From IMG/VR virus record IMGVR_UViG_3300018080_001657, positions 1-60,641 of that record: a stretch of 60,641 bases of DNA, one strand, 5' to 3'. Each line of letters starts with the position of its first letter. Position 1 is the first letter of the stretch. The notes below the pieces were generated by a model. It saw nothing but the letters and a program-made list of their open reading frames with translations, ran no database searches and was not told the origin of the DNA. The translations under genes and the position numbers were made by a program. The stretch comes from a virus. Shown here piece after piece: positions 9,850 to 58,211 of this stretch.

Positions 9850-9854
9850 TAAAA

Positions 9855-13030: not shown

Positions 13031-13042
13031 CTTGGAGACGAA

Positions 13043-36633: not shown

Positions 36634-37248
36634 GTGTTAATTCCATCAGCTAAAGCACAACTACTAAGAGACTATCAGAGTGCACTGTTCTATCAGATAA
36701 CAGAACCAAAGAATGAGAGACAGTATGTATTCTATCTGCTTCTGAGGCCTCTTCTGTTGTGGGTTAGAGATACTATGATAGACGATTGCCTGTTAGAACC
36801 TGCCGAGGCAGAGAGCGAGCTGTACTTGCTCTGCTGTAAGATATTTGATGACTTCGACAAAGAGAAAAGCAGTATCATTCCTTATCTAAGGAAAGCTATT
36901 CCGTGGAAAGTACATCATCTACTAAGAAAGCTTAAGAGAGTGTCTCAGAGAGAAATACCTTCTGGACTAACAGAAACAACTGAAGATTTATATGAAACAG
37001 ATGAAGAATATTACTGGAAGATACCAGAAATGTTTATTACCGATAGATTTATAGGTAAACTCTTTACAATAAGAGAAAAATACTATATATATAAGATACT
37101 TGTAGCCGACAACGACAAGTTAACACAAAAAGACCTAGCCAAAAGCTGTAAAGTCAGCAGGCCAACTATGAATATAAGGCTCTCAGAACTAAAGGAAGCC
37201 TTAGTAACTGGAGGATATAATGGTACTACCCAAAGACGTAAAACCTGA
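36634..37248 (+). CDS. sigma factor-like protein
   Basis: A GTG start gives 204 residues. Residues about 56-100 (AEAESELYLLCCKIFDDFDK, IIPYLRKAIPWKVHHLLRK) fit sigma region 2. The C-terminus (REKYYIYKI, TQKDLAKSCKVSRPTMNIRL) fits a region 4 helix-turn-helix. The layout is like T4 gp55-type late sigma factors. It could direct host RNA polymerase to late promoters. The similarity is by pattern only. Confidence 0.55.
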   Translation: MLIPSAKAQLLRDYQSALFYQITEPKNERQYVFYLLLRPLLLWVRDTMIDDCLLEPAEAESELYLLCCKIFDDFDKEKSSIIPYLRKAIPWKVHHLLRKLKRVSQREIPSGLTETTEDLYETDEEYYWKIPEMFITDRFIGKLFTIREKYYIYKILVADNDKLTQKDLAKSCKVSRPTMNIRLSELKEALVTGGYNGTTQRRKT

Positions 37249-37792
37249 AGATGTTATGCACCCAACAGGAGTTTTCTTTCGTAACCCCACTCACATGGAA
37301 GAAGCAGACATGGCACAGAGCCAAAACCAAATTGTAAAAGCACTTACGGCCGCTAAACGTGAACAAATAACCGAAGTACTGTCATTTACAGAAGAATCAA
37401 AACCATGGACTCTTCCTGGATTTGTTAATATTAGAGAAATGGATGAACTTCAATGTGAACAGCTTTGTCGGACCATGATGCGATACAGACCAAATATCTT
37501 TAAGGTTCATATTAAACTAGGGAATTACGTCAATGCTAAGCCTATTAAGACACTAAAAACAAGAAACCTATCTTCTTTAGAGCCACGTTTCCATACAGAA
37601 GTTGCAAAGAAAATGTCTGATGTTTTGTCTGACAGGTCTCTCAATGTAACAGAAATTATTTATACAGTTCATAGTGCTGAGCCTGGAAACTTTCGTGCAG
37701 TCAGTGAAGTATTTGGCATGGTAGATGACGAAGACTATGAGAATGATGAGCTATTTACACCTGGTATTCTAATCGAATATTACTCAAACTAA
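37220..37792 (+). CDS. hypothetical protein
   Basis: The 190-residue protein starts inside the sigma-like gene with ggagga upstream. It has mixed alpha/beta content and an acidic C-terminal region (DDEDYENDE). No family was recognised. It is the last gene before the sugar island. Confidence 0.65.
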   Translation: MVLPKDVKPEDVMHPTGVFFRNPTHMEEADMAQSQNQIVKALTAAKREQITEVLSFTEESKPWTLPGFVNIREMDELQCEQLCRTMMRYRPNIFKVHIKLGNYVNAKPIKTLKTRNLSSLEPRFHTEVAKKMSDVLSDRSLNVTEIIYTVHSAEPGNFRAVSEVFGMVDDEDYENDELFTPGILIEYYSN

Positions 37793-37816
37793 TTTTCCTG
37801 CCAAAGGAGCTAACTA

Positions 37817-39808
37817 ATGGCTCAACGTGTTCATGGTGTTATAAAACCTAACAGGCGTGGCAATGTACCTGCTAGAGTAGTGAACGTCCAGTCCAAAAAG
37901 AAAAATGAAAATAATAAGATTCGTCTTGATAAACTAACATCTGATAATCCTGTTATCTGTGTTAAGAGAAGACTTGGTGGCATTGGTGATGTCATTATGA
38001 CAACACCTCTTCTTAAAGAAATAAAAAGACTAATTCCTGATTGTCATCTAATATATGCTACAGACCTAGAGTATGCAGACGGAGCACTAGGAGATATAAT
38101 TAGACATAACCCATATGTTGATGAGCTTATACCAAATTCGCAAATCGCAGAAAGTACCTATGCCTATAGTGTAGATGTTACTGCTACTGGTTTAGCAAAA
38201 GAAAAAGCAGGACAAATACCTCCAAACAGAATTGATATGTTTGCAGAAGCTGTAGGTGTATGCGTAGGTGCAGATCCAGTTCCTGTATATGAAGTGACTG
38301 ATGAAGAAAGAGAGATGGCAACAAAGCGTATTGAAGCTGATTTCCTTGGACCAGCAAAAAGTAGAGAAGATATAAAGTTAATTGTAATTCAAGTAAGAAG
38401 TAACGACGCCAGAAGAACATGGCCTCTTGATCATATGGATAAATTGGCTGATATGTTAGCAAAAGACCCAAGCATTAGAGTTCTTTTGTGTGACTGGGGA
38501 GATAAAGCAGATAGATGGGAATCAAGAGAACGGGTATGGGCCATTAAGAATGAAAGCATTGTAGACATAGCTGCGATTATAGAACAATCTGATTTAGTTA
38601 TCTGTCCAGACAGTAGTATTCTTCATCTTGCTGGTGCGTTAAGTAAAAAGATTGTTGCTATCTTTGGGCCAATACCTCCTGAGAGCCGTATTAATCATTA
38701 TACAAATGCACATGCTGTTACATTAGGTTTGTCTTGTCAGTATTGCTGGTATACTCCAATGTGTATTAGAAGCAACAACACAAAATTTGATTGTCTAACA
38801 AAACTTACACCAAAAATGGTACACGACGTGGCAATAAAGAAAATGGCAAATGAATATATTGTAGAAACGAAAGTAGAATATGGTAAAAATATGACTACAG
38901 TCGGGGGACAAGATCCTGTTATATTAGTCAAAAGAACAACAGGAGGCATTGGCGATCTTGTTATGGCTACAGCAGGCATAGAAGCACTTAAGGAAAAGTT
39001 TCCTAACAAGAAATTACATGTTGCAGTAAATAAAAATCTACATCCAGTACTAGAAAACAATCCATATATTGACCATGTGCTTGATATTAATCAGCCAATA
39101 AATGCAAAAATCTATCATATGATTTTTGATATTTCTCATCCTTGTGCGCGATACGAAGTAGCAAGACTAAGAGCCAGAAAGCCTGTTGAAAAGAATAGAG
39201 TTGAAATTTATGCAGAAGCACTTGGGTCAAGAGAAATTATTAAAGATCTTAAACCAAGGATACATTTTACAGAAGAAGAACTTAAAGAAGGAAAAAAGTT
39301 TTTATTAGAAAATGGACTGAACCCAAACAAAAAGACTATTGCTATTGCAACTAACAGTACAGAACTTTACAGAGACTGGCCAGAAGAGAATTACACAGTG
39401 CTATTTGAAGCATTGAAAGACAAGTTTAATATTGCAATATTCCACAAAGAACGTAAAAACTTTTACCCTGGAATTATAGATGCTCGTGGTCTTCCATTAA
39501 GAAAAGCAATTAGTACCATGGCAACATGTGATGGTCTTATCACTGTAGACACAGGGTACTTGCATATTGCAGCAGCATTAAATATACCAACAGTGGCATT
39601 GTTTGGTCCTATTGATTACAAAGCAAGATGTAAAGGATATAAGAACACAACAGTTATTGTGTCAAATCTAGACTGTATTCCTTGTTGGCGTAATGGCACA
39701 ACAAAATGTAAACATACTGGTTTAGTAAAATCTTATTCTAGATGTATGGAAAATATTCATGTTAAACAAGTAATTAAAGTAGCACTTACAAAATTTAAAG
39801 GAATATAA
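37817..39808 (+). CDS. double-domain ADP-heptose:LPS heptosyltransferase (GT9 x2)
   Basis: Two complete GT9 domains are fused. Domain 1 (about 50-345) has RRLGGIGDVIMTTPLLKEIK, VICPDSSILHLAGAL and VAIFGPIPPESR. Domain 2 (about 368-655) has KRTTGGIGDLVMATAGIEAL, TVDTGYLHIAAALNIP and TVALFGPIDYKARC. The D-[ST]-[GS]-x-x-H motif is the donor-site signature of heptosyltransferases. Each domain ends with a CxxC-type pair (CQYCW, CIPCW). The enzyme transfers heptose from ADP-heptose. Two domains could give two successive transfers. Confidence 0.85.
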   Translation: MAQRVHGVIKPNRRGNVPARVVNVQSKKKNENNKIRLDKLTSDNPVICVKRRLGGIGDVIMTTPLLKEIKRLIPDCHLIYATDLEYADGALGDIIRHNPYVDELIPNSQIAESTYAYSVDVTATGLAKEKAGQIPPNRIDMFAEAVGVCVGADPVPVYEVTDEEREMATKRIEADFLGPAKSREDIKLIVIQVRSNDARRTWPLDHMDKLADMLAKDPSIRVLLCDWGDKADRWESRERVWAIKNESIVDIAAIIEQSDLVICPDSSILHLAGALSKKIVAIFGPIPPESRINHYTNAHAVTLGLSCQYCWYTPMCIRSNNTKFDCLTKLTPKMVHDVAIKKMANEYIVETKVEYGKNMTTVGGQDPVILVKRTTGGIGDLVMATAGIEALKEKFPNKKLHVAVNKNLHPVLENNPYIDHVLDINQPINAKIYHMIFDISHPCARYEVARLRARKPVEKNRVEIYAEALGSREIIKDLKPRIHFTEEELKEGKKFLLENGLNPNKKTIAIATNSTELYRDWPEENYTVLFEALKDKFNIAIFHKERKNFYPGIIDARGLPLRKAISTMATCDGLITVDTGYLHIAAALNIPTVALFGPIDYKARCKGYKNTTVIVSNLDCIPCWRNGTTKCKHTGLVKSYSRCMENIHVKQVIKVALTKFKGI

Positions 39809-39810
39809 AA

Positions 39811-40689
39811 ATGTCAAACATTCCTAGCTCTGTATTTGTAACTTTAGGTGGTGGTCTTGGTGATGTATTTTATACGTATGTAAACGGTAAAAATGGATGG
39901 GGTTATATAGAGTCTTTAAAAAAGACATATCCAAGTATTAAAATAAAAGCTATGTGTGCAACTCATAATCCACAAACATTAGACTTTATTGAAAATAATC
40001 CATATATTGATTCAATAGTTGAATTTGGATGGGTATTAGACGCAACAGAATTATGGAAAAAATACAAAGGAGATGCTGTACGTCTTGATAAACAAAAAGA
40101 CTTACTTAAAAAATTAAAAGATAAAAAACCTAATGTTTATTTAAGTCAAACAGACAAAGAAACTGTTAACAATATAACTAGTAGTGGAAATTTTGTGCTT
40201 CTTCATCCTTTTGCAGGAGAGCCACATCGTAGAGCACTGCCAGCTGAAGAATATATACCATTGATCGATAGTATTATAGATAAACTTGGATTAAATGTTG
40301 TTCTTATTGGCGGTAGCTATACAAGAAGTAATCGAGTCCACAAAGAACTAAAGACAGAATACTTAGATTACAATAGAAGTGGACTGCATAATATTATTGG
40401 CAAATCAAATGCTCGTATATGTTTGACATTGGCAAGAAAACAAACATGCTTTTTGGGTTCGTGGTCAGCGTACTCTTGTGCTTCATGGCTGTACAATAAG
40501 CACACAACAATATTGCTCCAAGAAAATGACGTAGAGAAACTTAATAAGAAACTAAGTAAAGGACAAAGATGGGACGGAGCAAAATGTGACATGATAACAA
40601 CCAAAGGACCATATCATAATCCAAAAGACACAAACTTCAAGAAGGTTCGAGAAGAAGCCTTTAACAAGATACAAAATGAAACAAAATAA
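39811..40689 (+). CDS. GT9-like glycosyltransferase
   Basis: The 292-residue protein starts with GGGLGDVFYTYVNGKNGW, a GT9-like phosphate-binding loop, and has NNPYIDSIVEF, LLHPFAGEPHRRALPAEEYI, VVLIGGSYTR and an LGSWSAYSCASWL motif where GT9 has D-[ST]-G-x-x-H. The donor-site Asp is replaced by Gly, so its donor may differ. Related genes at 40676 and 43647 share this variant. Confidence 0.7.
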   Translation: MSNIPSSVFVTLGGGLGDVFYTYVNGKNGWGYIESLKKTYPSIKIKAMCATHNPQTLDFIENNPYIDSIVEFGWVLDATELWKKYKGDAVRLDKQKDLLKKLKDKKPNVYLSQTDKETVNNITSSGNFVLLHPFAGEPHRRALPAEEYIPLIDSIIDKLGLNVVLIGGSYTRSNRVHKELKTEYLDYNRSGLHNIIGKSNARICLTLARKQTCFLGSWSAYSCASWLYNKHTTILLQENDVEKLNKKLSKGQRWDGAKCDMITTKGPYHNPKDTNFKKVREEAFNKIQNETK

Positions 40690-41497
40690 AGTATATTTAG
40701 GGTTGATTGGAGGGCTTGGGGATGTAATTTATCAGTATTTACATGACCCAGCATGGCAATCTCTTGCTGACTACAAAACAAAGAACCCTAATACTTGTAT
40801 CAAGGCTATCGTAGTCTCACACAACCCTCTAGCCCATCAAATCGTAGAATTAAACCCTTATATAGATGAAGTAGAACAACATCCTCCAAAGAGAGAGATG
40901 AGAGATAAAAACTGGAAGCATCACGAAGTCATACATCAGTATGCACAAGGAGAATCAAGACTTATCGGGTCTAACCTAACACACAATAGACCTGTATTCT
41001 ATCTAAAGAACTCAGAAGTTGAGTTAGTAAATCAATTAGTTGTTGGCAAGACAGCTGTAGTACATCCATTTGCATCAGAAGAAGCAAGAGTTTGTATCCC
41101 ACCAAAGGACTATAGATCTATTGTCGACAAATTAAGACACAAAATGTTCAATGTAATTATGCTTGGCGGAAGCTATGTAAAATCATTTGGAGAAGAAGAA
41201 AAGTATAATAAAGTCGAGAAGTTCTTGTACCCTAAGACAGATGGGTTCACGAATCTAATAGGCAAAACAAATGCAAGAACTTCATTAGCCTTAGTAACTA
41301 ATGCTGATTTGTTTGTTGGAACTTGGTCTTGTTATGGTGTAACAGCATGGATGCACGGTATAAAATCAATAATATGTGTGCCTGACAAAATGTCTGAAGG
41401 ATGTTATAAAATACATGATGGTAAATATAAAAACCATAACAAAGCAGATAAGATAATTAAAGAATCAAATAGCAAAATGATAGTGAGGCTAATATGA
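40676..41497 (+). CDS. GT9-like glycosyltransferase
   Basis: This 273-residue paralogue of the upstream gene shares [74 protein letters not shown] and [13 protein letters not shown]. It overlaps its neighbours by 14 and 4 bases, so the cluster is translated as one unit. The acceptor is unknown. Confidence 0.7.
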
Positions 41498-42522
41498 AGA
41501 AGGCATTAATAACTGGTATCACAGGACAAGATGGATCTTACCTGGCTGAATTGCTTCTTGATAAAGGTTATGAAGTACATGGAATAATTCGTCGTACAAG
41601 CAGCTATGTGAGACAAAGAATTGATCATTTGTCAATGGACCCAGAGATAAAAGACAAAACATTGTTTTTGCATTATGGAGACATGACAGACGGCTCAAAT
41701 ATCTCAAGACTAATTGAGAAAATTATGCCTGATGAGGTTTATAACCTGGCTGCGCAATCACATGTAAAGATTTCTTTTGATGTACCTGAATATAGTGCAC
41801 AGGTTGATGGCATTGGAACCATTAGGCTGCTAGATGCCCTTAGAGAATTATGCCCAAAGGCTAGGTTTTATCAAGCTTCTACATCTGAGCTGTACGGACT
41901 AGTACAGGAGACTCCACAGAAGGAAACTACGCCCTTCTATCCTCGTTCCCCTTATGCAGTAGCTAAACTATATGCATACTGGATCACAAGGAACTACAGA
42001 GAGGCTTATGGCATGTTTGCCTGTAATGGCATTCTGTTTAATCATGAGTCTGAGAGACGTGGAGAAAACTTTGTTACTAGAAAAATCACAATGTCAGTGG
42101 CACGTATTGCTCGTGGCCAACAAGACAAAATATCTTTAGGAAATCTATCTGCATTAAGAGACTGGGGATATGCGCCTGATTATGTAAGAGGAATGTGGAT
42201 GATGCTCCAGCAAGATGAGCCAATGGATATTGTGATGGCCACAGGAGAGCAACACTCTGTAGAAGACTTCTGTCTTGCAGCATTTGATGCTATTGGAATG
42301 CCCATTAAGTTCAAAGGAGAAGGTGTTGATCGTAAAGGGTATAACATAAATGGTGTTGTACGTGTAGATGTTAATCCAAAGTTCTTTAGGCCAACAGAAG
42401 TACAAACACTACTAGGTGATCCAACAATGGCTAAAGAAGTTTTAGGTTGGGAACCAACTATTAGCTTCAAAGAATTAGTTACTCGCATGGTAGTTAACGA
42501 TCTTAATGAGATAAAACAATGA
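41494..42522 (+). CDS. gmd: GDP-mannose 4,6-dehydratase
   Basis: The N-terminal NAD(P)-binding [20 protein letters not shown] is the Gmd signature. [47 protein letters not shown] with the catalytic Thr/Ser region, and [13 protein letters not shown] (YxxxK) follow; [18 protein letters not shown] is also typical. The enzyme makes GDP-4-keto-6-deoxy-mannose, the precursor of GDP-perosamine, fucose and rhamnose. The aminotransferase at 46699 could take the next step. Confidence 0.92.
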
Positions 42523-42758
42523 GCACTGGAAATAACATAGACAGGTTAATTGATATAAATAACAAACTGTGGCATGAAGCAACACAGATAAAAGACTTTG
42601 ATAACAAACCAATCAAAGGACTCTCTTCAGAAGAAAGAGTTAAATGTTTCCTTGCAGTTAGAAAACTTAATTCTAGTCGATCTGCAATTAGAGCAGAGAT
42701 AGATAGAGAATTTGATGACGGAGTTGACGAATCTAAAGTCAACTATTCTGGAGAGTAA
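42519..42758 (+). CDS. small helical protein, DUF4254-like (tentative)
   Basis: The 79-residue protein has [20 protein letters not shown], a motif resembling DUF4254 proteins found beside GT9 genes. It overlaps gmd by four bases. A shorter relative follows at 42760. The role is unknown, perhaps as a chaperone or subunit of a glycosyltransferase. Confidence 0.5.
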
Positions 42759-42759
42759 A

Positions 42760-42975
42760 ATGCTAACATATAGTATCGGAGAAATGGTTGATAAATTATG
42801 TGTAATTCATCTTAAGGTTTGGCATCTAGAAGAACAAATTCAAAAAGCAGAAGCAGATAGCCTAGACGCAAAAGAAATAGAAAAGTTATGTGACAAAGTA
42901 GTAAATCTAAATGCCTACAGGATGAAGATCGTCAAATCAATAGACGAATACTTTGAGGCAAAGGCAAATGGATGA
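42760..42975 (+). CDS. small helical protein, DUF4254-like (tentative)
   Basis: The 71-residue protein from 42760 has IGEMVDKLCVIHLKVWHLEE, similar in pattern to the gene just upstream (D-x-L/I...L-K-x-W-H-x-E). The two look like a tandem duplication. It overlaps the next gene by eight bases. Confidence 0.5.
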   Translation: MLTYSIGEMVDKLCVIHLKVWHLEEQIQKAEADSLDAKEIEKLCDKVVNLNAYRMKIVKSIDEYFEAKANG

Positions 42976-43654
42976 AGCTCTTATTAAAAAAACAATCAAT
43001 GGGGTTCAGAATTCTTCACTAGAATACATGAAGAGATATAGCTTATGTGATTGTGTTACTCTTGGATTCCCCGAAACATATAACGCTATGGGATTAGGAC
43101 TAGATGTATTCAACAGCAAGATAGAAGCTGGTAAGAAATACATCATGCCATATGCAAACAAAGTATCTGAGGAAGACATTAGAATCCTTAGACCTGTCGG
43201 CTACAAGACTCCCAAAGAAATTGAGACATTCTTATGGAGTCCATTTCATGATTCCACAAGCACATTCTATGATCTAGGTGACGACGTCATTCATTCTTTT
43301 AGATTTAAAGGACAGTGGTTAAGGAAATATAGCTTTGTAAAGCAACGTTCTGAACCATTGTTTACAGAAGTTATACGGTCAATTAAAACAATGAAAACAA
43401 AGATATATAACATGTGGGGATCAGATGTAAACTGCATGTTGTTGTTCTACGATAACTCTAGGTTGAATAATAAGACTGTCAAGAAGAGAATGGAAAGATA
43501 TAACGAAATATCACTAGAAGTATTGCATGACTGGCATGAATTGAAAGTTGAGCTGACAGAAGAAGACAAAGAAGGAAAAGAATGGGAGCATTATAAGAGG
43601 CCAGCAAGAATGAATTTATTAGATCAAATCAAGAAGATAGAAGACAATGCATAG
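42968..43654 (+). CDS. hypothetical protein
   Basis: The start at 42968 overlaps the upstream gene by eight bases. The 228-residue protein has a central CDCVTLGFPETYNAMGLGLD and aromatic-rich segments; the second half is helical and charged. No family was recognised; it may belong to the sugar island. Confidence 0.6.
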   Translation: MDEALIKKTINGVQNSSLEYMKRYSLCDCVTLGFPETYNAMGLGLDVFNSKIEAGKKYIMPYANKVSEEDIRILRPVGYKTPKEIETFLWSPFHDSTSTFYDLGDDVIHSFRFKGQWLRKYSFVKQRSEPLFTEVIRSIKTMKTKIYNMWGSDVNCMLLFYDNSRLNNKTVKKRMERYNEISLEVLHDWHELKVELTEEDKEGKEWEHYKRPARMNLLDQIKKIEDNA

Positions 43655-44507
43655 TAAATTCTATGTACATACTTGTGGAGGAATGGGAGACCATTATCTA
43701 GGATACTTCAACCCAAACTGCAAAAAATATGGACTTGGTTTTATTGAACAGCTTAAAGAAGAATACCCTAACTCAACTGTAAAACTTATTGCTCATCCTG
43801 CCAACCCACAAGGACCAGAGTTCTTTAGATACCATCCACATATAGATGAGATTGAAACACATCCATGGGTTGCAGGGCTAGGGAACTGTAAGAACAAAGA
43901 GAAAGAAGCAAAAGGATATATAGAGCTAGAAGAATTTGGTAAAGAGAAGGAATGGGCAAAGAGAAAGAATGAAACGATATATACTTCTGAAGAAGATGAC
44001 AAGTTCTTAAAAACAATCTTAAATAAAAAACCATTTGTTGTTTTACATCCATTCGCCAGTGATAAACAAAGAATGCCCATGCAACCAAGACAATTTTTTC
44101 CTTTGGTTGATAGTATTATCAAAGACTATGGCATCAAAGTAATTGTTTTAGGTGGCTCATACAAGAGAACAAGAAATAGACTAGATCAAATCAAAGAAGA
44201 ATTCCCCTATGAGAGAGAAGGTTTAATCAATCTTATCGGCAAGACCAATAGCAGAACAGCAGCTAAAATAATACACTCATCGAAGGTATTAATTGCTAAT
44301 CATTCTGGGCTATGGTGTGCTGCCTCAATAGGAGGAATAAAACTTATAGCAATGCACAGGAATCCAGAGTACCATAGCAAATGGATCAAATCTATCTTTG
44401 TAGATGATGGAGCTTCTTCTGTTGTCATAGATGTAAATGAAAAGATTAGAAAAAACATAATTAGAGCAAATATCATAGAGCGACTAGATAAAATCTTGAG
44501 GGCATAA
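43647..44507 (+). CDS. GT9-like glycosyltransferase
   Basis: The 286-residue protein shares the cluster's variant: TCGGMGDHYLGYFNPNCKKY, YHPHIDEIETHPW, VVLHPFASDKQRMPMQPRQF, VIVLGGSYKRTRNR, LINLIGKTNSRTAAKII and IANHSGLWCAASIGG. The H-S-G variant lies where GT9 has D-S-G-x-x-H. It is the fifth GT9-like domain in the island. Confidence 0.72.
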   Translation: MHSKFYVHTCGGMGDHYLGYFNPNCKKYGLGFIEQLKEEYPNSTVKLIAHPANPQGPEFFRYHPHIDEIETHPWVAGLGNCKNKEKEAKGYIELEEFGKEKEWAKRKNETIYTSEEDDKFLKTILNKKPFVVLHPFASDKQRMPMQPRQFFPLVDSIIKDYGIKVIVLGGSYKRTRNRLDQIKEEFPYEREGLINLIGKTNSRTAAKIIHSSKVLIANHSGLWCAASIGGIKLIAMHRNPEYHSKWIKSIFVDDGASSVVIDVNEKIRKNIIRANIIERLDKILRA

Positions 44508-44508
44508 A

Positions 44509-45312
44509 ATGGATAAAGTATTTATAAAGAAAAACCACACGACAAAACAACAAGAATACTATAAGAAATTCAGAAACAACAAACACTGGGCAAAAGAATC
44601 ATCTAGGACTGGCAACCATTATCTTAATACATATCAGAACCTTAGAGATATCAACAAGCATGTTTTTCCTTATAACTTTGTATCGAATACAGACACAATA
44701 GTTAGTTGTGGGTGTGCACGGATGTATTTAGACATGGGAATATCTGACCCATTTATATTTGCAACTCTTGCTAAGAAAGTCATACTGTTTGAGGCAGACC
44801 CAATCAACATTCCTGCTGTTAGTTCTTATATAGAGAATAACAATGTAGAAAATGTAGAGCTTATATCTAAGGCAGTATGGGACAAGAATGAAGAGGTCAT
44901 GTTCTCTTCCTACAAGAAAACACCTGGTGGATCAAACCATATAGGTGGTTCGAATAGAAACATCCTAGTGCCTATTGAAGGAATAACACTAGACGCAGCA
45001 ATCAAAGAACCAGTTGACCTCTTACATCTCACAATCAATGGCATTGAGCACAAAGTGCTAAAGACAGCAGAATCACTGTTGGAGAACAAACCAATTGTGA
45101 CAGTAGCAATGTTTAACAAGAGTCATGAGATGTTTAAGAACAGGAAGAAAGCAGTAGAGTTGTTGTATGACTCTGGATATTACATTGGATGGGCAAAAGC
45201 ATCCTCTATTCCATGGGAAGATTTTAATTTCTGGTTTGCTATTGCCACACCAGACAAAGATCAATTACAATCACTAGGCTTTGAGCAGACATCAGAACTG
45301 TTCCCTGTATAG
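44509..45312 (+). CDS. FkbM-family methyltransferase
   Basis: The FkbM pattern is clear: VSCGCARMYLDMG, VILFEADPINIPAVSSYIEN, VENVELISKAVWD, then the late GITLDAAIKEPVDLLHLTIN and GIEHKVLKTAESLL (FkbM: DLIKIDVEGAELEVLKG). These enzymes O-methylate sugars or lipids. At 267 residues it is complete. In this island it may cap a transferred sugar. Confidence 0.78.
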   Translation: MDKVFIKKNHTTKQQEYYKKFRNNKHWAKESSRTGNHYLNTYQNLRDINKHVFPYNFVSNTDTIVSCGCARMYLDMGISDPFIFATLAKKVILFEADPINIPAVSSYIENNNVENVELISKAVWDKNEEVMFSSYKKTPGGSNHIGGSNRNILVPIEGITLDAAIKEPVDLLHLTINGIEHKVLKTAESLLENKPIVTVAMFNKSHEMFKNRKKAVELLYDSGYYIGWAKASSIPWEDFNFWFAIATPDKDQLQSLGFEQTSELFPV

Positions 45313-45322
45313 AGAGGCACAT

Positions 45323-45967
45323 ATGTTTTTATCACCACGAAAAGAAGAAGTACCTTTTATATTGAACAACATCAAGAGTGGAAACATTCTTAATATTGGT
45401 GGAGCACAAGGAGAATGGAAAAGCAAACTTCTAGATAAAGGTCACCAGATGACAATTGTTGACGTAAGGAAATGTGTTTCCAACAGGAAGAATTGTACTG
45501 TTGTGCAGGCAGATGTAAGAAACGTGACACCAGAGTCCATAGGAACATTTGACAATATCATATTGATGTCTACTCTAGAGCATATCTCATTGCCTCTCTT
45601 CTCTAAAGACAACACAAAGACTTGGCAAGATGGACCGTGGAAAGAACAATTGAAAGTATTCAAGCACTGTACAACACTGCTTAAAGAGAACGGCATTATT
45701 ATATTTACTATTCCATGTGGGACACCAACAAAAGCACCAAGACATAAGCTGCTATATAACGAAGAGATGATTGAAGCAATAAAAGCAGAATGTGAAGTAG
45801 AGAAAGAACATTACATTCTTAGGCGTCCTGATAAATGGGAACACAGATCTGAATTTCCAATAGAATGTTGTTCTCCTGAAGAAGAAGCCGAGAGAATAGC
45901 AGACTCAACAGGAAGATTTGCATCTGCAATCTGTCTCATGATATTAAAAAAACCAAAAGAGGACTAA
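45323..45967 (+). CDS. class I SAM-dependent methyltransferase
   Basis: The start at 45323 has agagg upstream. NILNIGGAQGEWKSKLLDKG is the SAM-binding loop, followed by MTIVDVRK, CTVVQADVRN and FDNIILMSTLEHISLPL. The 214-residue protein ends with a LLKENGIIIFTIPCG segment. The acceptor is unknown. It lies between a FkbM enzyme and a sulfotransferase. Confidence 0.78.
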   Translation: MFLSPRKEEVPFILNNIKSGNILNIGGAQGEWKSKLLDKGHQMTIVDVRKCVSNRKNCTVVQADVRNVTPESIGTFDNIILMSTLEHISLPLFSKDNTKTWQDGPWKEQLKVFKHCTTLLKENGIIIFTIPCGTPTKAPRHKLLYNEEMIEAIKAECEVEKEHYILRRPDKWEHRSEFPIECCSPEEEAERIADSTGRFASAICLMILKKPKED

Positions 45968-46711
45968 ATGCCACTTCCAAACTTTATTATTATTGGTGAG
46001 ACCAAGTGTGGTACCACCTCAATGTATGACAATCTTATTCAACACCCACAGATATTGCCAACAGTTGGAAATGGGAATGATAGGATTGTTGATGCTAGTG
46101 TGCCGCTCGGAGTAAAAGAACTCAGATTCTTTGATCGTAATTATCATAGAGGCTGGGACTGGTACAAGTCATGCTTCCCCGAATGCCCTGAAGGCTGTAT
46201 TACAGGTGAAGCAACACCTATGTATCTTAATAGAACATTAGCATTAGACCGTATTGCTTCTGTGCTTCAAGATAACGTAAAGCTCATCGTGATGATAAGA
46301 AATCCAGCTAAAAGACTAGTGTCACATTTCTATCACAATCAAAGTATCAACAAGGATTGGCATATAAAATATCCAACAATATATGAATTCTGGCACAAGG
46401 TATCAGATCCAGATTATCATATGATTGAAAGAGGTATCTATTGGAAATCATTATTTAACTTGCAGAACTTTTTCAACAATGAGAATATACGTGTAGTTAT
46501 ATTAGAAGACATGCTTACGAGGCCACAAAAGGTATTGAATAATTTGTTTGATTTTCTAGAAGTAGACAAGACAGACACGATAGTTCCTGCTCATTCAAGA
46601 AAGAGCCAGAATAAACAAAAAGAAGCTGCACCTGATTATGTTTATGACTTTTACAAAACACACAATCTAATATTAGAAGAAATGTTACAGACAAAACTAT
46701 GGACAAAATAA
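45968..46711 (+). CDS. PAPS-dependent sulfotransferase
   Basis: FIIIGETKCGTTSMYDNLIQ (6-25) is the 5'-phosphosulfate loop, and KLIVMIRNPAKRLVSHFYHN (about 108-127) the 3'-phosphate site, as in heparan-sulfate-type sulfotransferases. GEATPMYL and ERGIYWKSLFN also fit. The enzyme moves sulfate from PAPS onto a hydroxyl or amine, probably a sugar of this island. It overlaps the aminotransferase by 13 bases. Confidence 0.88.
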   Translation: MPLPNFIIIGETKCGTTSMYDNLIQHPQILPTVGNGNDRIVDASVPLGVKELRFFDRNYHRGWDWYKSCFPECPEGCITGEATPMYLNRTLALDRIASVLQDNVKLIVMIRNPAKRLVSHFYHNQSINKDWHIKYPTIYEFWHKVSDPDYHMIERGIYWKSLFNLQNFFNNENIRVVILEDMLTRPQKVLNNLFDFLEVDKTDTIVPAHSRKSQNKQKEAAPDYVYDFYKTHNLILEEMLQTKLWTK

Positions 46712-47772
46712 ATCTACTTGAACCAGTAATACCGCCTAAGTCAAAAGAGTATGTGAATGACTGCTTAGACACGGGATGGCTATCATACTCAGGAAGCTAC
46801 GTAAAGCAACTTGAGAACCAAGTTAAAGACTTTGTAAGAACTAAGTCTGCTGTAGCTATGGGAAACGGCACAGGAGCTTTGTGGGTAGCACTAAAAACAT
46901 TTAGTATAGGACCAGGAGACTTTGTAGTAGTGCCGTCAATGACATTTGTAGCTACTGTAAATGCAGTTATTCAGACAGGTGCCACTCCAGTGTTTGTAGA
47001 CTGTAACAATAATCTACAAATAGATATAAATTTTTTACGTGATGCTATCGAAAAGCTAAAACCAAAAGCAATTATTCCTGTGCACATACTAGGAAACTTA
47101 TGCGACATGGACACAATTAAAAGTCTTGCCTATAACGACTGTATACCTGTAATTGAAGATGCAGCACAAGCATTAGGATCTATAGACAAATGTAATTGTT
47201 ATGCTGGTACAAGAGGAACAGTTGGAATGTATTCGTTTAGTTTCAACAAACTTATTGCTGCTGGACAAGGCGGAATGTTAGTCACAAGAGAAGAAAGACT
47301 TGGAAATCATATGAAGTATTTCTCTTTACAGTCAAAAGATAATGCTGAGATGTATGTTCATGATGAAGCTGGCTTTAATATGGGCATGTCAAATATAAAC
47401 GCAGCATTAGCCTGTGGGCAAATGGAAAACATAGATGAGACATTAAAGCAGAAGAGACGTGTACGTGACAAATATGTAGAACTTCTAGGCAAAGAGAACA
47501 TGTACTATCAAGAAGGTGGAAACGGGTGGTTAAATGCCTACAAGACAAACAAGGCCTATAAAGAGGTATCTTTAAGATGCAAAAGAGCTGGAATTCAAGT
47601 AAGACCGCTCTTCTATCCTAATCACAAACAAACAAGCTTCAATAAATATCCATATTTTGGAAACCATATGGCAGAAAACAAATATAAAACCACCGTATGT
47701 ATTCCATCGAGCCCAAACCTTACAGACGAACAAATCCAACATGTAGTAAAATCAATTAGAGGTGATAAATAA
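46699..47772 (+). CDS. DegT/DnrJ/EryC1 aminotransferase, perosamine synthase-like
   Basis: The fold-type I sugar aminotransferase motifs are GNGTGALWVALKTFSIGPGD, VPSMTFVATVNAVIQTGATP, VIEDAAQALGS and SFSFNKLIAAGQGG, where K184 would bind PLP. With Gmd at 41494, the product GDP-4-keto-6-deoxymannose could be converted to GDP-perosamine. The 357-residue length fits. The substrate is inferred from the pairing and not proven. Confidence 0.82.
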   Translation: MDKINLLEPVIPPKSKEYVNDCLDTGWLSYSGSYVKQLENQVKDFVRTKSAVAMGNGTGALWVALKTFSIGPGDFVVVPSMTFVATVNAVIQTGATPVFVDCNNNLQIDINFLRDAIEKLKPKAIIPVHILGNLCDMDTIKSLAYNDCIPVIEDAAQALGSIDKCNCYAGTRGTVGMYSFSFNKLIAAGQGGMLVTREERLGNHMKYFSLQSKDNAEMYVHDEAGFNMGMSNINAALACGQMENIDETLKQKRRVRDKYVELLGKENMYYQEGGNGWLNAYKTNKAYKEVSLRCKRAGIQVRPLFYPNHKQTSFNKYPYFGNHMAENKYKTTVCIPSSPNLTDEQIQHVVKSIRGDK

Positions 47773-47984
47773 TGGCACTTACATACGAAGAAAAGCTTAG
47801 GCTTAAGAATGCTGAAGAAACAACACAAGGATTAAAAGATCTTGTAGATGGAGCTGGCAGCAAGAACCAACTAAAACAGTTGCTTACTCTATGTCAAGAA
47901 CAACTAAGAAGAGTTGAGGCTAGATTAGATACTATTGAAACAGATCTAGAGGCAGCATTAACATTAGCTAGACGCCTTCAATAA
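47772..47984 (+). CDS. hypothetical small helical protein
   Basis: The 70-residue, all-helical protein (QEQLRRVEARLDTIETDLEA) likely forms a coiled coil. It begins one base within the previous stop and is the last plus-strand gene; its end overlaps the minus-strand gene by 17 bases. Confidence 0.65.
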   Translation: MALTYEEKLRLKNAEETTQGLKDLVDGAGSKNQLKQLLTLCQEQLRRVEARLDTIETDLEAALTLARRLQ

Positions 47985-48321
47985 TAGAATGCTTCCATCT
48001 CTTATGAGACTTTAATCCTCGCTCTGATTTAGATTCAAACCCACAAATATCACACTTGTTGGTCTTTGGAAAAAGACTTTCAAAATCAAACATCTTATCT
48101 TCCTCTTCAACAGGATCTGGTTCTTCAATCTTTTCTTCTTTAATAGGTATATGAATTACTTCCTCAGTATTTGGAGTAGCAACATACACCTCTACAGTTT
48201 GTACTGGTTCAACAATAACTTCTGGTTCTTGTGTTTTAGGATAAAATCCTTGTTTTCTTCTAGGACGAATAGGCTTGTTTGTTCTTGGCCCACCTATCAC
48301 TCCATGTCTTCTAGTTGTCAT
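47968..48321 (-). CDS. proline/glutamate-rich protein with C2H2 zinc finger
   Basis: The 117-residue protein has a basic N-terminus (MTTRRHGVIGGPRTNKPIRP), an acidic Pro/Glu/Val middle and a C-terminal finger CDICGFESKSERGLKSHKRW with a final KH. The spacing C-x2-C-x12-H-x4-H plus the F and L of the core fits a classical C2H2 finger. It is unusual in phages. It sits at the strand switch, last in the minus-strand tail block. It may bind DNA or be a structural linker. Confidence 0.7.
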   Translation of the reverse strand: MTTRRHGVIGGPRTNKPIRPRRKQGFYPKTQEPEVIVEPVQTVEVYVATPNTEEVIHIPIKEEKIEEPDPVEEEDKMFDFESLFPKTNKCDICGFESKSERGLKSHKRWKHSIIEGV

Positions 48322-48333
48322 ATTAAAAACTCC

Positions 48334-50781
48334 TTATTGCAAATAAATTAAATTAAAATCTGTTAGTGTCGGGGCGTCAAAGTTTTCTGACAGTTTATGA
48401 ATCTGAACAAAGATATGAGTTCCTTGTCCTGCAACTGAATAAGCAGGTGTTCCGGCATCATCGTGCATATATTTTGCTTCTTCCCAATACCAACCTGCAC
48501 CTGCAACTTTATTAGGATCATAAACACCAATACAACAGTTTTGACTTCTAATCTTTAAAGAAAAAGTACCAGCTGAAGTATCATTTCCACCATTGTATAA
48601 CTCTACTCCTGCAGCAGTAGTTGTTGGGTCAGTAGTAGCACCAAGGAGAATATTATGGTATTCTGTATCGAGACCATAGTTGTAAGAAGCACCATACCAT
48701 ACTGGCATTCCACCATGTCCACAAACACCTATAAAAACCTCAAATCCTTCAGTAGAACTAAGAGTTGGCGCATCAAAAATAACTTCTGCTTCCCAGTTAT
48801 GTGGCCTCATAAGAGGAACTATAAAAGAAGGACCTGAATTAGTACTTGCTCCAACTGGAACAAGACCTGAACTCCAAGTCCAGCTTCCTGTTGTAGCACT
48901 GCCAGCAATATGAGTTGGATATGGTATTGTTCCACTAGAAACATCTGTATGGTCACTTATAACAATTCCTAATGCTAATAGTTCTGCATCGGAATTAGTT
49001 GCAACATTAGTAAAATCAATTTCAAAAACTTGCTCTCCAAGCCTCCATATGTTTTCATCACTACTGCTGCCTATTTTAAACAAATCAGTAGTCCATTGCG
49101 TAACACCATCTGAATCACATGACAATAATGTTGTAGCATTTCTAACTAAAGTAAAATCATTAGTATAAGGATCGTCGTTATACGTAAGAGTTAATGCATT
49201 GCCAGAAGTTATTGAAACGTTATCTGCAGCATCTAATATTATATCATCTGATGAATCTAAGCTAATATTACCGGCTCCTAGTGTTGTTGCATTGAAGTTC
49301 TGTCCACTAGCGGGATCGAATTCTACTCCGCCTGCAGCAGTAAACGTAGCTACAACTGAAGCAGTGCCACCATAAAAATCAGTCTTCCCATCTCCTGCCA
49401 GTACCATTACATCACTATATGTCTGAGGTGTTCCTGCTGGAGTAGCGCCTCTTGCTATTGAATAGTTATTTGGTGTCCCAAGCGCATTGTATCTGTGTAT
49501 GTGTTGTGCAGTATACCAAGTAGCAGATCCGTACCTATTTATTGTCAGAACCTCATCTGCGGCAGAACCCCTTTGTAAAATAAAATCTCCAGAGCTATCA
49601 CCAGCATCATATCTAATCACTATATCGTCATCTGCGTATTGAGTAATATCGTCACCAGATGTCAAACTAATATCGCCAGTTCCGTTAGTAGTTAAGTTTA
49701 TAGCGTAATTAGCCGAAGGATACAAAAGAAAAGACCCCGTCGGAGTGAAATCAACTTGACCAAGACGATTAAATTTGAGTATGTTCGTGGTGTTATTCTG
49801 AACAGTGAAATCATTTGATACTACAGCAGATCCGGCAGTATTATATGCAAGTGTATGATCTGTTGTTGCATAGATTCTAACATCTGCCCCGGCATTGAAA
49901 TATAAATAGTTTGCCCCGGTCTGAGACATAACAAAACCTTCGCCGTCTAAAGGATCAACAATAACATCGCCATCTTGGGTGCACGATAAAACAGCAGTGG
50001 ACCCCTGATGTCTAACGGAAAAATCATCATGGTAATTACCCGCAGCAGACTTGCCATAGTCAATATTAATTCCTGAATTTGCTTCTAAAGCAATAGTGCC
50101 ATATGTATCAGCAAGAGTAGAAATAAAAGAAATAGTTGAAGCAGAGGTTAAAGTAATATTGCCTGCGCCAGAAGAAGTTATCTCACAATTCTGACCAGAA
50201 ATAGGATCTATTTCTATCTTTCCATTTTCGTCACACAAAAAAACAGTAGTAGTTCCTTTGCGTACTCTAAAATCTTCTGACCCTCCTGTCGTTCCTGCGG
50301 CATTATAGCTTATAATTGTACCAATTTGAGAAGTTAAATTTATATTGGTATCTGCATTTACAAGAATATTACCAGTACCAGTAGCATTGATCGTAGTGTC
50401 AAAATCTGCGGTAGTAGAAGTAAAAGTGGTCTGAGGAGTTAAAGCAATCGCACGAGTAAACTCTGCTATAGTTGCAGAACTACGAATAAGCTTTAAATAA
50501 TCAGAAGATCCTCCTGCATCTGCATAGACAAGCTCAGTATTAGTATTAGATTTAGTTGTAAGAATTCCACCTCCACTAGACGAGTGGAGAAGCACATCAT
50601 CAGAAGCTAGGAGTGTTAGATTGTCGCCAGAAGTCAAAGAGATGTCTCCAGCTCCATCAGTATCTACATTAAAATCATAACCAGATCCTGGATTTATTAC
50701 GTTATCTCTGCCTTCGCCAAGAACAAAGTCAGACCCATCCCCAATATACAAAGCTTCTCGAATTCTTGTTTCGCCAGCCAT
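48334..50781 (-). CDS. repetitive tail-fibre-like protein
   Basis: The 815-residue protein is built of repeats such as GAGDISLTSGDNLTLLASDD, GAGNISLDSSDDIILDAADN and GTGDISLTSGDDITQYADDD. Each has G-x-G-[DN]-I-[ST]-L and D-D/N turns, like beta-helical fibre repeats in marine phages. The C-terminal 200 residues form a different, globular-looking domain, perhaps for receptor binding. The N-terminus MAGETRIREALYIGDGS is shared in style with other fibre genes. taaggagt precedes the start. Confidence 0.75.
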   Translation of the reverse strand: MAGETRIREALYIGDGSDFVLGEGRDNVINPGSGYDFNVDTDGAGDISLTSGDNLTLLASDDVLLHSSSGGGILTTKSNTNTELVYADAGGSSDYLKLIRSSATIAEFTRAIALTPQTTFTSTTADFDTTINATGTGNILVNADTNINLTSQIGTIISYNAAGTTGGSEDFRVRKGTTTVFLCDENGKIEIDPISGQNCEITSSGAGNITLTSASTISFISTLADTYGTIALEANSGINIDYGKSAAGNYHDDFSVRHQGSTAVLSCTQDGDVIVDPLDGEGFVMSQTGANYLYFNAGADVRIYATTDHTLAYNTAGSAVVSNDFTVQNNTTNILKFNRLGQVDFTPTGSFLLYPSANYAINLTTNGTGDISLTSGDDITQYADDDIVIRYDAGDSSGDFILQRGSAADEVLTINRYGSATWYTAQHIHRYNALGTPNNYSIARGATPAGTPQTYSDVMVLAGDGKTDFYGGTASVVATFTAAGGVEFDPASGQNFNATTLGAGNISLDSSDDIILDAADNVSITSGNALTLTYNDDPYTNDFTLVRNATTLLSCDSDGVTQWTTDLFKIGSSSDENIWRLGEQVFEIDFTNVATNSDAELLALGIVISDHTDVSSGTIPYPTHIAGSATTGSWTWSSGLVPVGASTNSGPSFIVPLMRPHNWEAEVIFDAPTLSSTEGFEVFIGVCGHGGMPVWYGASYNYGLDTEYHNILLGATTDPTTTAAGVELYNGGNDTSAGTFSLKIRSQNCCIGVYDPNKVAGAGWYWEEAKYMHDDAGTPAYSVAGQGTHIFVQIHKLSENFDAPTLTDFNLIYLQ

Positions 50782-50790
50782 ATTAACTCC

Positions 50791-52668
50791 TTAAATAACA
50801 GAACTTCTAATAACTGAAACAGACCAGTTATCAGAAGTAGAGATAGCTCTTAGTCGAACGTCTCCCGAAGCACCAGACATATCAACAGACAGCGTAACAT
50901 CTACAGTACCAGCATCAAGAGTAGTAACTTCATTGTACACTGGTGTTGTCCCTGCTGAATAATCCCACGAACACACAATCATTCCAGCACGATGATTTGT
51001 ATCATCGTCATTATCAATGATATTAAAGAACCATACACACCCTCCATTGTCTCCAGGGTCAAAAGTATCTACATCTTCAATAACTTGATCTACATCTGTA
51101 TTAGAAGCAGCAGACCATGAAGAACCACCAGCAGAAATAGGAGAGCCACTCCAGTACAAAGTTCCACTAACATTATATAGTTTGTCGGTTGTAGTTCCTG
51201 GCGATGAAATTTGTGCAAGCTGACATTCAGAATCAAAGTAAGAAATACCATCAACTTCAATCCTACCAGAAACAAACAAATCTCCATCAGTAGCTAAAGA
51301 ATGACTTGTGGTGCTTGTTGGTCCTATTGATAAATTTCCTTTGCCAGTTTGTATTCTGCCATCTGTTTGATCATGATACAGCCCAAGCCATTGAGTATTA
51401 TCGCTATCAGGATCAGTAACTGAATGAATAAAAATTGTAGGGTCTGTTTGTGTGGCATGATCGTAATCTTTGCCGTCACCATTAGCAACATCACCAAAAA
51501 CAAGATGTCTTCCTTCCGGTGGCCCAAGTAAAAAATACATCTGATTAATAGTATTTGAAGATTTCATACGACCGCCTACAGCAGTTGTATTAAAGTACAT
51601 AGCAACACCATCACCAAGAATAAGACTATTGTACTGATAGACAGCTCCATCAAAATAAGCTATTCCATCAACTTCAAGTTGATCAGCTACATAAAGGTCG
51701 CCAGCGCCAAAAGAAAAACGACTAGCAGCTTCTGTTCCAATGCTAAGACTAGCAAACTCAGGACTAGCAGAAACCTGCAAATCTTGGTCTAAAGTACAAT
51801 CAGCACTTACAGTAAGTAGCGTTGTACCTTGAGCAAGAGTAAGTGTATTGCCTGTATAACCAAGTGCAACAGTAGTTTCTACAACAGTGCTAGGAGCTGG
51901 AGTGCCGTCAGTTGTATATAAAACACTTGGGTTGGTATATGAACTCGGAGTGTCAGTGAGTCCTAAGAAAGAAGTAACGCCACCGCCTCCAACTGGAGAG
52001 CCAGCCCAATAGAGAGTGCCACCAATATTATATAGCTTGTCGGTAGATGTCCCTGGAGCTGAAATTTGATTTAATTCAATTTCAGAATCAAAGTAAGAAA
52101 TACCAGTTACTTCAAGGCTACTAGAAACATATAAATCACCGTCAGCAGTCAAAGAATGATTGGTTGTAAGAGAACCTATAGATAAATTACCTTTACCAGT
52201 TTGTATTCTACCGTCTGTTTGATCATGATACAATCCTAGCCATTGAGTATTATCTGAACTTGGACTAGTATTAGAATGAATAAAAACTGTAGGGTCTGTT
52301 GGTGTGCTATGTCCATGGTCTAGTGCTCTACTTGCAAACTCAGTAATAACTAGTTGGTTGCCCTGTAAGGTTCCTAAGCCTAAAGCAACCTGGTAAGTAG
52401 TTGCCCTGAATGCACTTCTGCCAGCACTGTCACTAAAAGCTATATCTTCTGTTGCATATAAAGCCGACAAGGTATATGCTGCACCGTCAAAATAAGAAAC
52501 GCCATCAACTTCAAATTGACTAGTGACATATAATGACTTGTCTGTTGTGGCACGATTAGGTGTGCCGTCTCCAATATATACACTATCGTTGGCAACAGCA
52601 GGAGTTAAAATCGATCCTGTCTTTGTCCAAAGACCAGGACCAGTTATAATTGCACTATTAGTAGCCAT
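50791..52668 (-). CDS. repetitive tail-fibre-like protein with duplicated modules
   Basis: The 625-residue protein contains repeated modules: LYVTSQFEVDGVSYFDG, LYVSSSLEVTGISYFDS, LYVADQLEVDGIAYFDG and LFVSGRIEVDGISYFDS. A longer module (DNTQWLGLYHDQTDGRIQTG then KGNLSIG) occurs twice. The N-terminus begins with ITGPGLWTKTGSILTPA. The C-terminus has a calmer beta domain. The pattern is of fibres seen in cyanophages and similar viruses. The role is probably host recognition. Confidence 0.75.
   Translation of the reverse strand: MATNSAIITGPGLWTKTGSILTPAVANDSVYIGDGTPNRATTDKSLYVTSQFEVDGVSYFDGAAYTLSALYATEDIAFSDSAGRSAFRATTYQVALGLGTLQGNQLVITEFASRALDHGHSTPTDPTVFIHSNTSPSSDNTQWLGLYHDQTDGRIQTGKGNLSIGSLTTNHSLTADGDLYVSSSLEVTGISYFDSEIELNQISAPGTSTDKLYNIGGTLYWAGSPVGGGGVTSFLGLTDTPSSYTNPSVLYTTDGTPAPSTVVETTVALGYTGNTLTLAQGTTLLTVSADCTLDQDLQVSASPEFASLSIGTEAASRFSFGAGDLYVADQLEVDGIAYFDGAVYQYNSLILGDGVAMYFNTTAVGGRMKSSNTINQMYFLLGPPEGRHLVFGDVANGDGKDYDHATQTDPTIFIHSVTDPDSDNTQWLGLYHDQTDGRIQTGKGNLSIGPTSTTSHSLATDGDLFVSGRIEVDGISYFDSECQLAQISSPGTTTDKLYNVSGTLYWSGSPISAGGSSWSAASNTDVDQVIEDVDTFDPGDNGGCVWFFNIIDNDDDTNHRAGMIVCSWDYSAGTTPVYNEVTTLDAGTVDVTLSVDMSGASGDVRLRAISTSDNWSVSVIRSSVI
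51140..51465 (-). repeat. duplicated fibre module, copy B
   Basis: About 330 bases of the fibre gene repeat the segment at 51994-52325 with high similarity, including a stretch ctgtttgatcatgatacag shared exactly. Both encode GDL(Y/F)VS...SYFDS...TDKLYN and LGLYHDQTDGRIQTGKGNLSIG-type text. Such repeats can recombine and change fibre length. Confidence 0.7.
51994..52325 (-). repeat. duplicated fibre module, copy A
   Basis: Partner of the module at 51140-51465, about 850 bases apart in the same gene. The copies differ mostly at third codon positions and in a few variable residues (for example STPTDPTVF against ATQTDPTIF), so this is an old duplication kept by selection. Confidence 0.7.
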
Positions 52669-52682
52669 TTATAGTCAACTCC

Positions 52683-54656: not shown

Positions 54657-54665
54657 ATTATCTCC

Positions 54666-57425: not shown

Positions 57426-57427
57426 TA

Positions 57428-57748
57428 TTATTCTTCCTCTTCGCTATCATAGAGAGCTTTCATTGCAGAAAGTTCTGACAAGATAGATACAGCCTGAGCT
57501 GTAGTTAAGTTATTAGCATTAGCAACAGCCTTTATTCCTCCAGCCTTTTCAATTGCTTTAGCAGGACTATATGTATTAAATATAGTATTAAAGATACTAA
57601 CAATTTTAGCTTTGGTAACTGTTGGTTGTCCTGGTGGCTCAGGAGGTTCAGGAATTGCTTCAAGCTTAGTCTCTATTTGCAACACAGTAAATTCTCCAAT
57701 TGCCATAATCTCAGGGGCAACAGCTTCATATTCTTCTAATGTGGCCAT
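57428..57748 (-). CDS. hypothetical protein in tail block
   Basis: The 106-residue protein is acidic at both ends, with a proline-rich hinge (AIPEPPEPPGQPTV) and a helical C-terminal half. It sits between structural genes and could be a small tail component or chaperone. Confidence 0.6.
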   Translation of the reverse strand: MATLEEYEAVAPEIMAIGEFTVLQIETKLEAIPEPPEPPGQPTVTKAKIVSIFNTIFNTYSPAKAIEKAGGIKAVANANNLTTAQAVSILSELSAMKALYDSEEEE

Positions 57749-57762
57749 TCATATCCTTTCTT

Positions 57763-58200: not shown

Positions 58201-58211
58201 TTTATATCTCC

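Follow-up and report, generated by a model that had tools for sequence, protein, structure and literature searches.

What would a virus do with a block of glycan genes placed beside its tail-fibre genes? The question is raised by IMGVR_UViG_3300018080_001657, a linear virus record of 60.6 kb (the window, taken here over its whole length) that is probably an incomplete piece of a genome. The original prediction, made from the letters of this DNA alone, placed a sugar island at 37817-47772, and its ends were almost exact: the unit found here covers 37793-47771 and has natural borders at one fixed spot beside the tail-fibre genes. Its leading gene encodes a fused tandem glycosyltransferase of family GT9 (the double GT9), which was inherited with the replication genes, while the remaining island genes turn over. 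The answer that we propose, tentatively and short of calling it probable, is that the island is a glycan module: the phage would help to make an activated heptose, and the glycan would decorate a phage product, likely the Ser/Thr-rich fibres.

Relatives were drawn from IMG/VR by two scans, one with the primase-helicase and one with an alignment of five double GT9 sequences; a single double GT9 sequence used as query against viral contigs returned no relatives, whereas the multi-sequence alignment succeeded. Beyond the window, eleven IMG/VR records (G001-G011) carry the double GT9. Because G006, G007 and G009 were retrieved solely by the GT9 query and the other eight also by the primase, the less biased measure of its presence is the primase-selected one: the double GT9 occupies the locus in 8 of 9 relatives that are at least 57% identical in the primase and reach the locus. 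G012, which ends before the locus, stands outside this count, as do G014-G018, for which the primase is 27-38% identical and coverage of the equivalent locus was not established; the GT9 was not found in these five records, which may stop short of that locus. Searches for families absent from the clade covered 12 records (the window and G001-G011), which are mostly fragments, two of them 174 and 198 kb long. The clade carrying the island can be classified from gene content as a myovirus group, because G004 encodes a tail sheath, a portal, a large terminase and a major head protein. Of 50,697 phage records, 4 contain a partial-length match to the G004 tail sheath, with 31-32% identity.

The unit and its borders are as follows:

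37793-47771, + strand: glycan island as a unit, 9979 bp; its two flanking phage genes lie 8 nucleotides (nt) apart in the relative G013.
37220-37792, + strand: left border, a phage gene of 190 amino acids (aa); in 10 of 11 relatives the double GT9 comes directly after a homologue of it, and a homologue is also present at the empty site in G013.
47772-47984, + strand: right border, a 70-aa gene; a homologue closes all six full islands and adjoins the empty site.

Complete islands are present in the window, G004, G006, G008, G010 and G011, the homologue of the 70-aa border gene being inverted in G006. The G013 border genes meet directly (17711 to 17720 in stretch L088), and no GT9 was found anywhere in that record. 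For these two reasons G013 is regarded as a natural empty site for the island, evidence that goes beyond the original prediction. In the window the island consists of twelve + strand reading frames with intergenic gaps of -47 to +2 nt, counted from the first start codon. Scans for promoters and terminators performed no better than on shuffled sequence.

Pairwise identities of the double GT9 track those of the primase over nine records (r = 0.75, with none of 10,000 permutations as high; mean identities 0.52 for the double GT9 and 0.64 for the primase), so the gene was inherited together with the replication genes. The other genes are much less constant. Three GT9-type variants accompany the double GT9 in the window and in G004, two in G006 and in G008, and one in G010 and in G011. 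GDP-mannose 4,6-dehydratase (Gmd) is encoded in 3 of the 6 complete islands and in 6 of the 12 records overall, some of which are cut by contig ends. A DegT aminotransferase and a Pfam-level sulfotransferase each occur in 4 of the 6 complete islands, the latter recognised in G004 and G008 through homology to the window's enzyme. Among the other cargo, G010 has a fusion of a polysaccharide pyruvyl transferase with a methyltransferase, G006 has a hexapeptide acyltransferase, and G008 has a sub-threshold GDSL match. G011 has two cargo genes, and G002, G006 and G010 have one each (five in all), whose products of 269-282 aa are sulfotransferase-like by eye only, their Pfam matches being none, sub-threshold or unrelated. 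The GC content of each island tracks that of its own locus, over a range of 31 to 51%, and the island genes therefore look long-resident. In G007 a TnpB/OrfB_IS605 gene (8824-9969 of stretch L033) sits immediately upstream of the double GT9 and is a possible agent of cargo exchange.

Which reactions could such an island carry out? The enzymes expected to build the glycan are four GT9-type proteins:

37817-39808, + strand: fused tandem GT9 (heptosyltransferase type), 663 aa; PF01075 in two stretches, 102.5 bits.
39811-40689, + strand: GT9-fold variant 1; no Pfam match, assigned by the fold of its model.
40676-41497, + strand: GT9-fold variant 2; PF01075 at 21.1 bits, cut-off 22.
43647-44507, + strand: GT9-fold variant 3; PF01075 at 27.1 bits, cut-off 22.

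The five GT9-type domains that had been predicted were recovered: three pass the Pfam cut-off, one falls short by 0.9 bit and one is recognised by fold. The two halves of the double GT9 are 26.5% identical to each other, and each contains the GxGD and D-S/T-G/S..H motifs. Of the 24 halves examined across the carriers, 22 contain GxGD and 23 contain the D..H motif when strict patterns are used; for G003, where three GT9 units lie within one open frame, the first two units were counted. The description as a double heptosyltransferase holds as far as the two GT9 domains are concerned but not at the level of a specific function, since the scores against the NCBIfam models for lipopolysaccharide (LPS) heptosyltransferases I, II and III (113, 102.8 and 76.3 bits) are below all three equivalog cut-offs (185.3, 134.6 and 170.2). 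Identity between this protein and the ten bacterial loci that the search yielded is 23-26%.

GT9-fold variant 1, which is 31% identical to the other two variants, gave a model with a pLDDT of 94. It is most like GT9 structures, namely 3tov (Z 17.7), WaaF (1psw, Z 16.7) and WaaC (Z 14.7), the top non-GT9 structure being at Z 14.3. The closest solved relatives include WaaF and WaaC, both of them characterised as LPS heptosyltransferases. The alignment of the model to TibC begins at TibC residue 90, and the model has no N-terminal beta-barrel. The tetra-Cys clusters of the double GT9 were considered as a TibC-type iron finger, but the same pattern is present in 6 of 10 bacterial GT9 loci and a TibC-specific link was dropped for that reason.

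The double GT9 begins with a basic N-terminal extension of about 45 aa. Its start (37817-37950) is conserved and basic in the window and 11 relatives, roughly following HGVI..P....PARVVN..SK+R, and a similar start is found in a 117-aa zinc-finger-like protein with a weak Pfam match at the end of the fibre operon (47968-48321, - strand). A loose RxHGVI pattern was searched in six records as a candidate virion signal. It matched 23 frames, mostly chance-looking. The plausible genes among them were mainly those for the double GT9 and the zinc-finger-like protein, plus a single GT9 variant in G004, and the pattern missed the double GT9 in G006.

The remaining eight genes of the island are the following:

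41494-42522, + strand: Gmd; TIGR01472 at 534 bits, equivalog cut-off 415.
42519-42758, + strand: small DUF4254-like protein; weak, 14.3 bits, below the cut-off of 27.
42712-42975, + strand: small DUF4254 protein; 31.6 bits, cut-off 27.
42953-43654, + strand: conserved 233-aa protein with homologues in G002, G010 and G011.
44509-45312, + strand: FkbM-type methyltransferase; TIGR01444 at 52.4 bits, cut-off 37.7.
45281-45967, + strand: class I methyltransferase; PF13489 at 38 bits, passing Pfam.
45968-46711, + strand: carbohydrate sulfotransferase; PF00685 at 63 bits, passing Pfam.
46699-47772, + strand: DegT-family sugar aminotransferase; PF01041 at 280 bits.

The predicted Gmd, both methyltransferases and the sulfotransferase were borne out, each passing a curated cut-off; the FkbM-type protein is under its Pfam cut-off (20.1 vs 22.7 bits). 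The two DUF4254-like genes and the 233-aa gene had not been listed before. A model of the 233-aa protein weakly resembles SGNH esterases/O-acetyltransferases (best Foldseek E 4.9e-3), with no PDB sequence match and no Foldseek match at E <= 0.001. The nearest solved structures to the sulfotransferase are heparan sulfate 3-O-sulfotransferases (1t8t, E 2.4e-15), which suggests that it likely acts on a carbohydrate acceptor.

The aminotransferase had been described as perosamine-type. Its assignment to the DegT family stands, and its PDB matches are headed by 7b0m, followed by the perosamine synthases 3bn1, 3dr7 and 3dr4. The top NCBIfam model is LegC-type (312 bits, below the cut-off of 420), no NCBIfam equivalog cut-off is passed, and G006 has the aminotransferase whereas Gmd was not found in its 115-kb fragment. 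Perosamine is one plausible option for the sugar product on this evidence. The aminotransferase has matches in 86 of 50,697 phage records, none of them reaching 60% identity. Membrane-type hydrophobic stretches are absent from all 12 island proteins (the top 19-residue Kyte-Doolittle mean is 1.56, compared with 2.50 for a control window protein), from which it follows that the island contains no flippase or polymerase. The Gmd genes of G004 (12920-15145 of stretch L030) and G005 (12859-14828 of stretch L029) each contain a long in-frame insert whose ends look intein-like by eye; the two inserts sit at different conserved motifs, next to the TSE motif in G004 and at a later one in G005. These candidate inserts, read by eye, would be unusual as inteins in a sugar-nucleotide enzyme.

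If the GT9 enzymes transfer heptose, where would the activated sugar come from? About 28 kb upstream of the island, an HldE-like trio overlaps in series at 7889-9646:

7889-8341, + strand: HldE-C-like nucleotidyltransferase; rfaE_dom_II at 51 bits, cut-off 181.5.
8338-8796, + strand: cupin, candidate sugar-phosphate isomerase; Cupin_2 at 38 bits, Lyx_isomer at 27.3 bits.
8681-9646, + strand: HldE-N-like heptose-7-phosphate kinase of the PfkB type; rfaE_dom_I at 105.6 bits, cut-off 345.

That a split HldE is present agrees with the top-scoring families, rfaE_dom_I and rfaE_dom_II, and with the heptose-7-phosphate kinase 4e84 as the top PDB match of the kinase profile (E 9.5e-19, the next PDB entry being at 4.4e-6); the pair is divergent and below the equivalog cut-offs, so the assignment holds only to that extent, with no other NCBIfam family scoring higher. 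The kinase was found in 4 of the 12 records (the window, G008, G010 and G011), each of which also has the cupin. G002 and G006 end before this stretch, and the remaining records are shorter there or their coverage of it was not established. Homologues of the nucleotidyltransferase are present in G010 and G011. An SIS-type GmhA (SIS_2) was found in none of the 12 records, the control search being positive in 9 of 14, and a GDP_Man_Dehyd search of the records found no dehydratase/epimerase besides Gmd. The phage would therefore depend on its host, or on the cupin of the trio, for the missing activities. The original prediction of a route from sugar phosphates to a finished glycan is well supported in gene content, but its heptose branch is incomplete without GmhA and its perosamine branch was not established. 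The cupin weakly resembles D-lyxose and L-ribose isomerases, and oxalate decarboxylase-type cupins score about equally. The cupin accompanies the split HldE in P-SSM2, S-SSM7 and Sf-CH8 as well as in this clade; this recurrence and the weak isomerase likeness suggest that it is a pathway enzyme, perhaps one that replaces GmhA.

In the proposed mechanism the fixed core would consist of the fused tandem GT9 and at least one GT9-fold partner. This core would use an activated heptose-type sugar, supplied with the assistance of the phage through the split HldE-like kinase and nucleotidyltransferase, and perhaps with the cupin as isomerase. The cargo enzymes (Gmd with the DegT aminotransferase, methyltransferases and sulfotransferases, and in relatives also the pyruvyl transferase or the hexapeptide acyltransferase) would add and modify outer sugars. 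Since the cargo is exchangeable, each phage would have its own glycan variant. The glycan would be attached to the neighbouring Ser/Thr-rich tail fibres, which it might mask or tune. ADP-heptose as the donor, the order of the steps and the fibre as the acceptor are what we infer here. The candidate acceptor is encoded next to the island:

48334-59801, - strand: convergent fibre operon; Ser/Thr-rich, some proteins with laminin-G and CBM domains (PF13385, PF02018).

PF02839 is just under its cut-off in this operon. Ser and Thr together account for 19-25% of the residues in five fibre proteins, compared with 8-14% in twelve other window proteins. Both G008 and the empty-site relative G013 have GT25 genes next to their fibre genes; in G010 the fibre operon is accompanied by a sulfotransferase gene, and the tail operon includes a gene of the GT2-TPR type. 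Glycosyl- and sulfotransferase genes in or beside fibre and tail operons of relatives lend support to the decoration of tail proteins, which had been among the options predicted, with modification of host LPS as a close rival. A more specific version, in which the cupin replaces GmhA in an ADP-D,D-heptose route, the GT9s O-heptosylate Ser/Thr of the fibres, the tandem GT9 extends the chain and the cargo serotypes it, would be unlikely to hold in all its parts. If it did, interchangeable methyl, amino-sugar and sulfate groups would give each phage its own sugar serotype.

Several observations weigh against fibre decoration. The island closes the replication-side operon and is not part of the structural one, and its adjacency to the fibre genes may merely result from the convergence of two operons. 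High Ser/Thr content is generally common among tail fibres. The fold of variant 1 matches TibC less well (Z 12.4) than it matches 3tov and the LPS enzymes (Z 14.2-17.7); some non-GT9 folds also score above TibC, for example plant NDH-PSI subunits (Z up to 14.3) and UDP-GlcNAc 2-epimerases (Z up to 14.1). The tetra-Cys clusters of the double GT9 are not TibC-specific. A homologue of the nucleotidyltransferase was not seen in G008, and the HxGH motif of this enzyme, intact in G010 and G011, reads NxGH in the window, the first His being replaced by N. No APS kinase for the supply of phosphoadenosine phosphosulfate (PAPS) was found in the 12 records, which would leave the host as the source of the sulfate donor. 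The island might instead remodel the LPS or another surface glycan of that host, with the GT9s capping the core with heptose in the cytoplasm and the cargo modifying the cap, which would block co-infecting phages or grazers. This is possible, if doubtful. It agrees with WaaF and WaaC ranking above TibC and being among the closest solved relatives, with the tight, co-directional arrangement of the island and the replication genes, and with the host-LPS role that PMC2984593 proposes for the LPS genes of P-SSM2. However, the island encodes no membrane protein, flippase or polymerase, the decorating genes of relatives lie in or beside their fibre and tail operons, and a lytic cell would probably leave little time for replacement of the surface.

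The sugars could also be placed on phage DNA as a protection against restriction, another option of the original prediction. Phage glycosyltransferases are known to modify DNA, as stated in PMC12619734, and the replication genes adjoin the island, but this target is disfavoured because no enzyme of the thymidylate-synthase/dCMP-hydroxymethylase family was found in the 12 records, the control being positive in 9 of 14 genomes. A search for the Tet/JBP family is uninformative in this respect, its controls having given no match. Cargo turnover and sulfation would also be unusual for a base modification, and we consider DNA a very improbable acceptor. We give least credence to the island being stuffer or passenger DNA with no selected function, an idea raised for cyanophage LPS genes in PMC3037559. 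The empty locus of G013 and the variable cargo would suit it. Against it stand the double GT9 in 8 of 9 primase-selected relatives and its co-inheritance with the primase, the retention of the GxGD and D..H motifs (in 22 and 23 of 24 halves, respectively), and reading frames that are intact and closely packed.

Fibre decoration by a phage-encoded heptose pathway would have partial precedents. In PMC4358343, TibC is described as a GT-B heptosyltransferase that uses ADP-D,D-heptose to heptosylate serines of repeat adhesins. TibC and AAH share with the phage variant a GT-B fold related to GT9; the phage enzymes would likewise use ADP-D,D-heptose, and the acceptors of TibC and AAH are Ser-rich repeats. 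In contrast to TibC, the variant 1 model has no N-terminal beta-barrel and is nearer to LPS GT9 folds, and a fibre acceptor is only putative. WaaC, WaaF and 3tov belong to GT9 by Pfam and by fold, as do the island enzymes, among which the double GT9 differs in having two GT9 domains per chain (three in G003) and the basic N-terminal extension. Virion proteins of mycobacteriophages bear glycans, according to PMC12619734. Unlike those phages, the phage studied here also brings enzymes for sugar nucleotides, methylation and sulfation. To our knowledge the enzymes and sugars of mycobacteriophage virion glycosylation are different ones, and the hosts differ as well.

Like the window, the cyanophages P-SSM2, S-SSM7 and Sf-CH8 encode a split HldE and a homologous cupin (identity 25-40%); in these cyanophages they sit with other sugar genes in a single cluster, and the nucleotidyltransferase of S-SSM7 is assigned from annotation only. 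A split HldE is annotated in cyanophage records, and in view of the HldE and cupin homologues in P-SSM2 and S-SSM7, phage heptose cassettes must be considered already known. In P-SSM2 the heptose genes lie between two genes annotated as tail fibres, whereas the trio of the window is about 28 kb away from its island. With tblastn, 10 island proteins gave no match at E 0.01 in the three cyanophage stretches, in which the kinase and cupin controls did match. The double GT9, the sulfotransferase and one GT9 variant have no match in the 50,697 phage records. The HldE-cupin trio shared with cyanophages points to a possibly non-canonical route to activated heptose. In P-SSM2 the gene annotated as phosphoheptose isomerase (9755-10099 of stretch L096) looks by eye like a short HAD-type phosphatase and not like an SIS protein, with a weak LNS2 match in Pfam; the adjoining cupin is annotated as cysteine dioxygenase.

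There are published accounts of LPS clusters, a heptosyltransferase and glycosyltransferases in phages, and of sulfotransferases in viruses (PMC3037559, PMC2984593, PMC10747093, PMC12619734, PMC8290583, PMC10829341). The LPS genes of cyanophages were reported years ago and their function is left open in PMC3037559. No demonstrated target for phage LPS genes was found in the literature searched, nor was any description of the arrangement seen in this clade, in which a tandem-GT9 core sits at a fixed locus with cargo that is exchanged and a site that can be empty. The conserved tandem-GT9 core with swappable cargo is what distinguishes this island from the known phage LPS gene clusters. With its fixed locus, conserved core, differing cargo and empty-site relative, the clade provides a clean natural comparison. 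If the fibre is the acceptor, the receptor-binding machinery of these phages would wear a sugar coat that can be exchanged, with consequences for host range, for immune recognition and for the interpretation of many metagenomic "auxiliary" sugar genes.

Some genes elsewhere in the window deserve mention. A PARP-type ADP-ribosyltransferase (1750-2937) adjoins an RlaP-type nucleotidyltransferase (2934-3917), and both recur in G010 and G011 at 60-63% identity; homologues of the PARP-type protein are present in 14 of the 50,697 phage records. G011 also has a nicotinate phosphoribosyltransferase and a cytidylyltransferase-like gene that is NadD-like by eye, which suggests a link between the supply of nicotinamide adenine dinucleotide and ADP-ribosylation in that phage. 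For one G011 gene a macro-domain identity was considered, but Pfam gave it no support. By eye, a RecA-like gene (17075-19138) looks interrupted by an insert, and the gene for DNA polymerase III alpha (21647-26027) appears split round a homing-endonuclease-like frame at 22820-23617.

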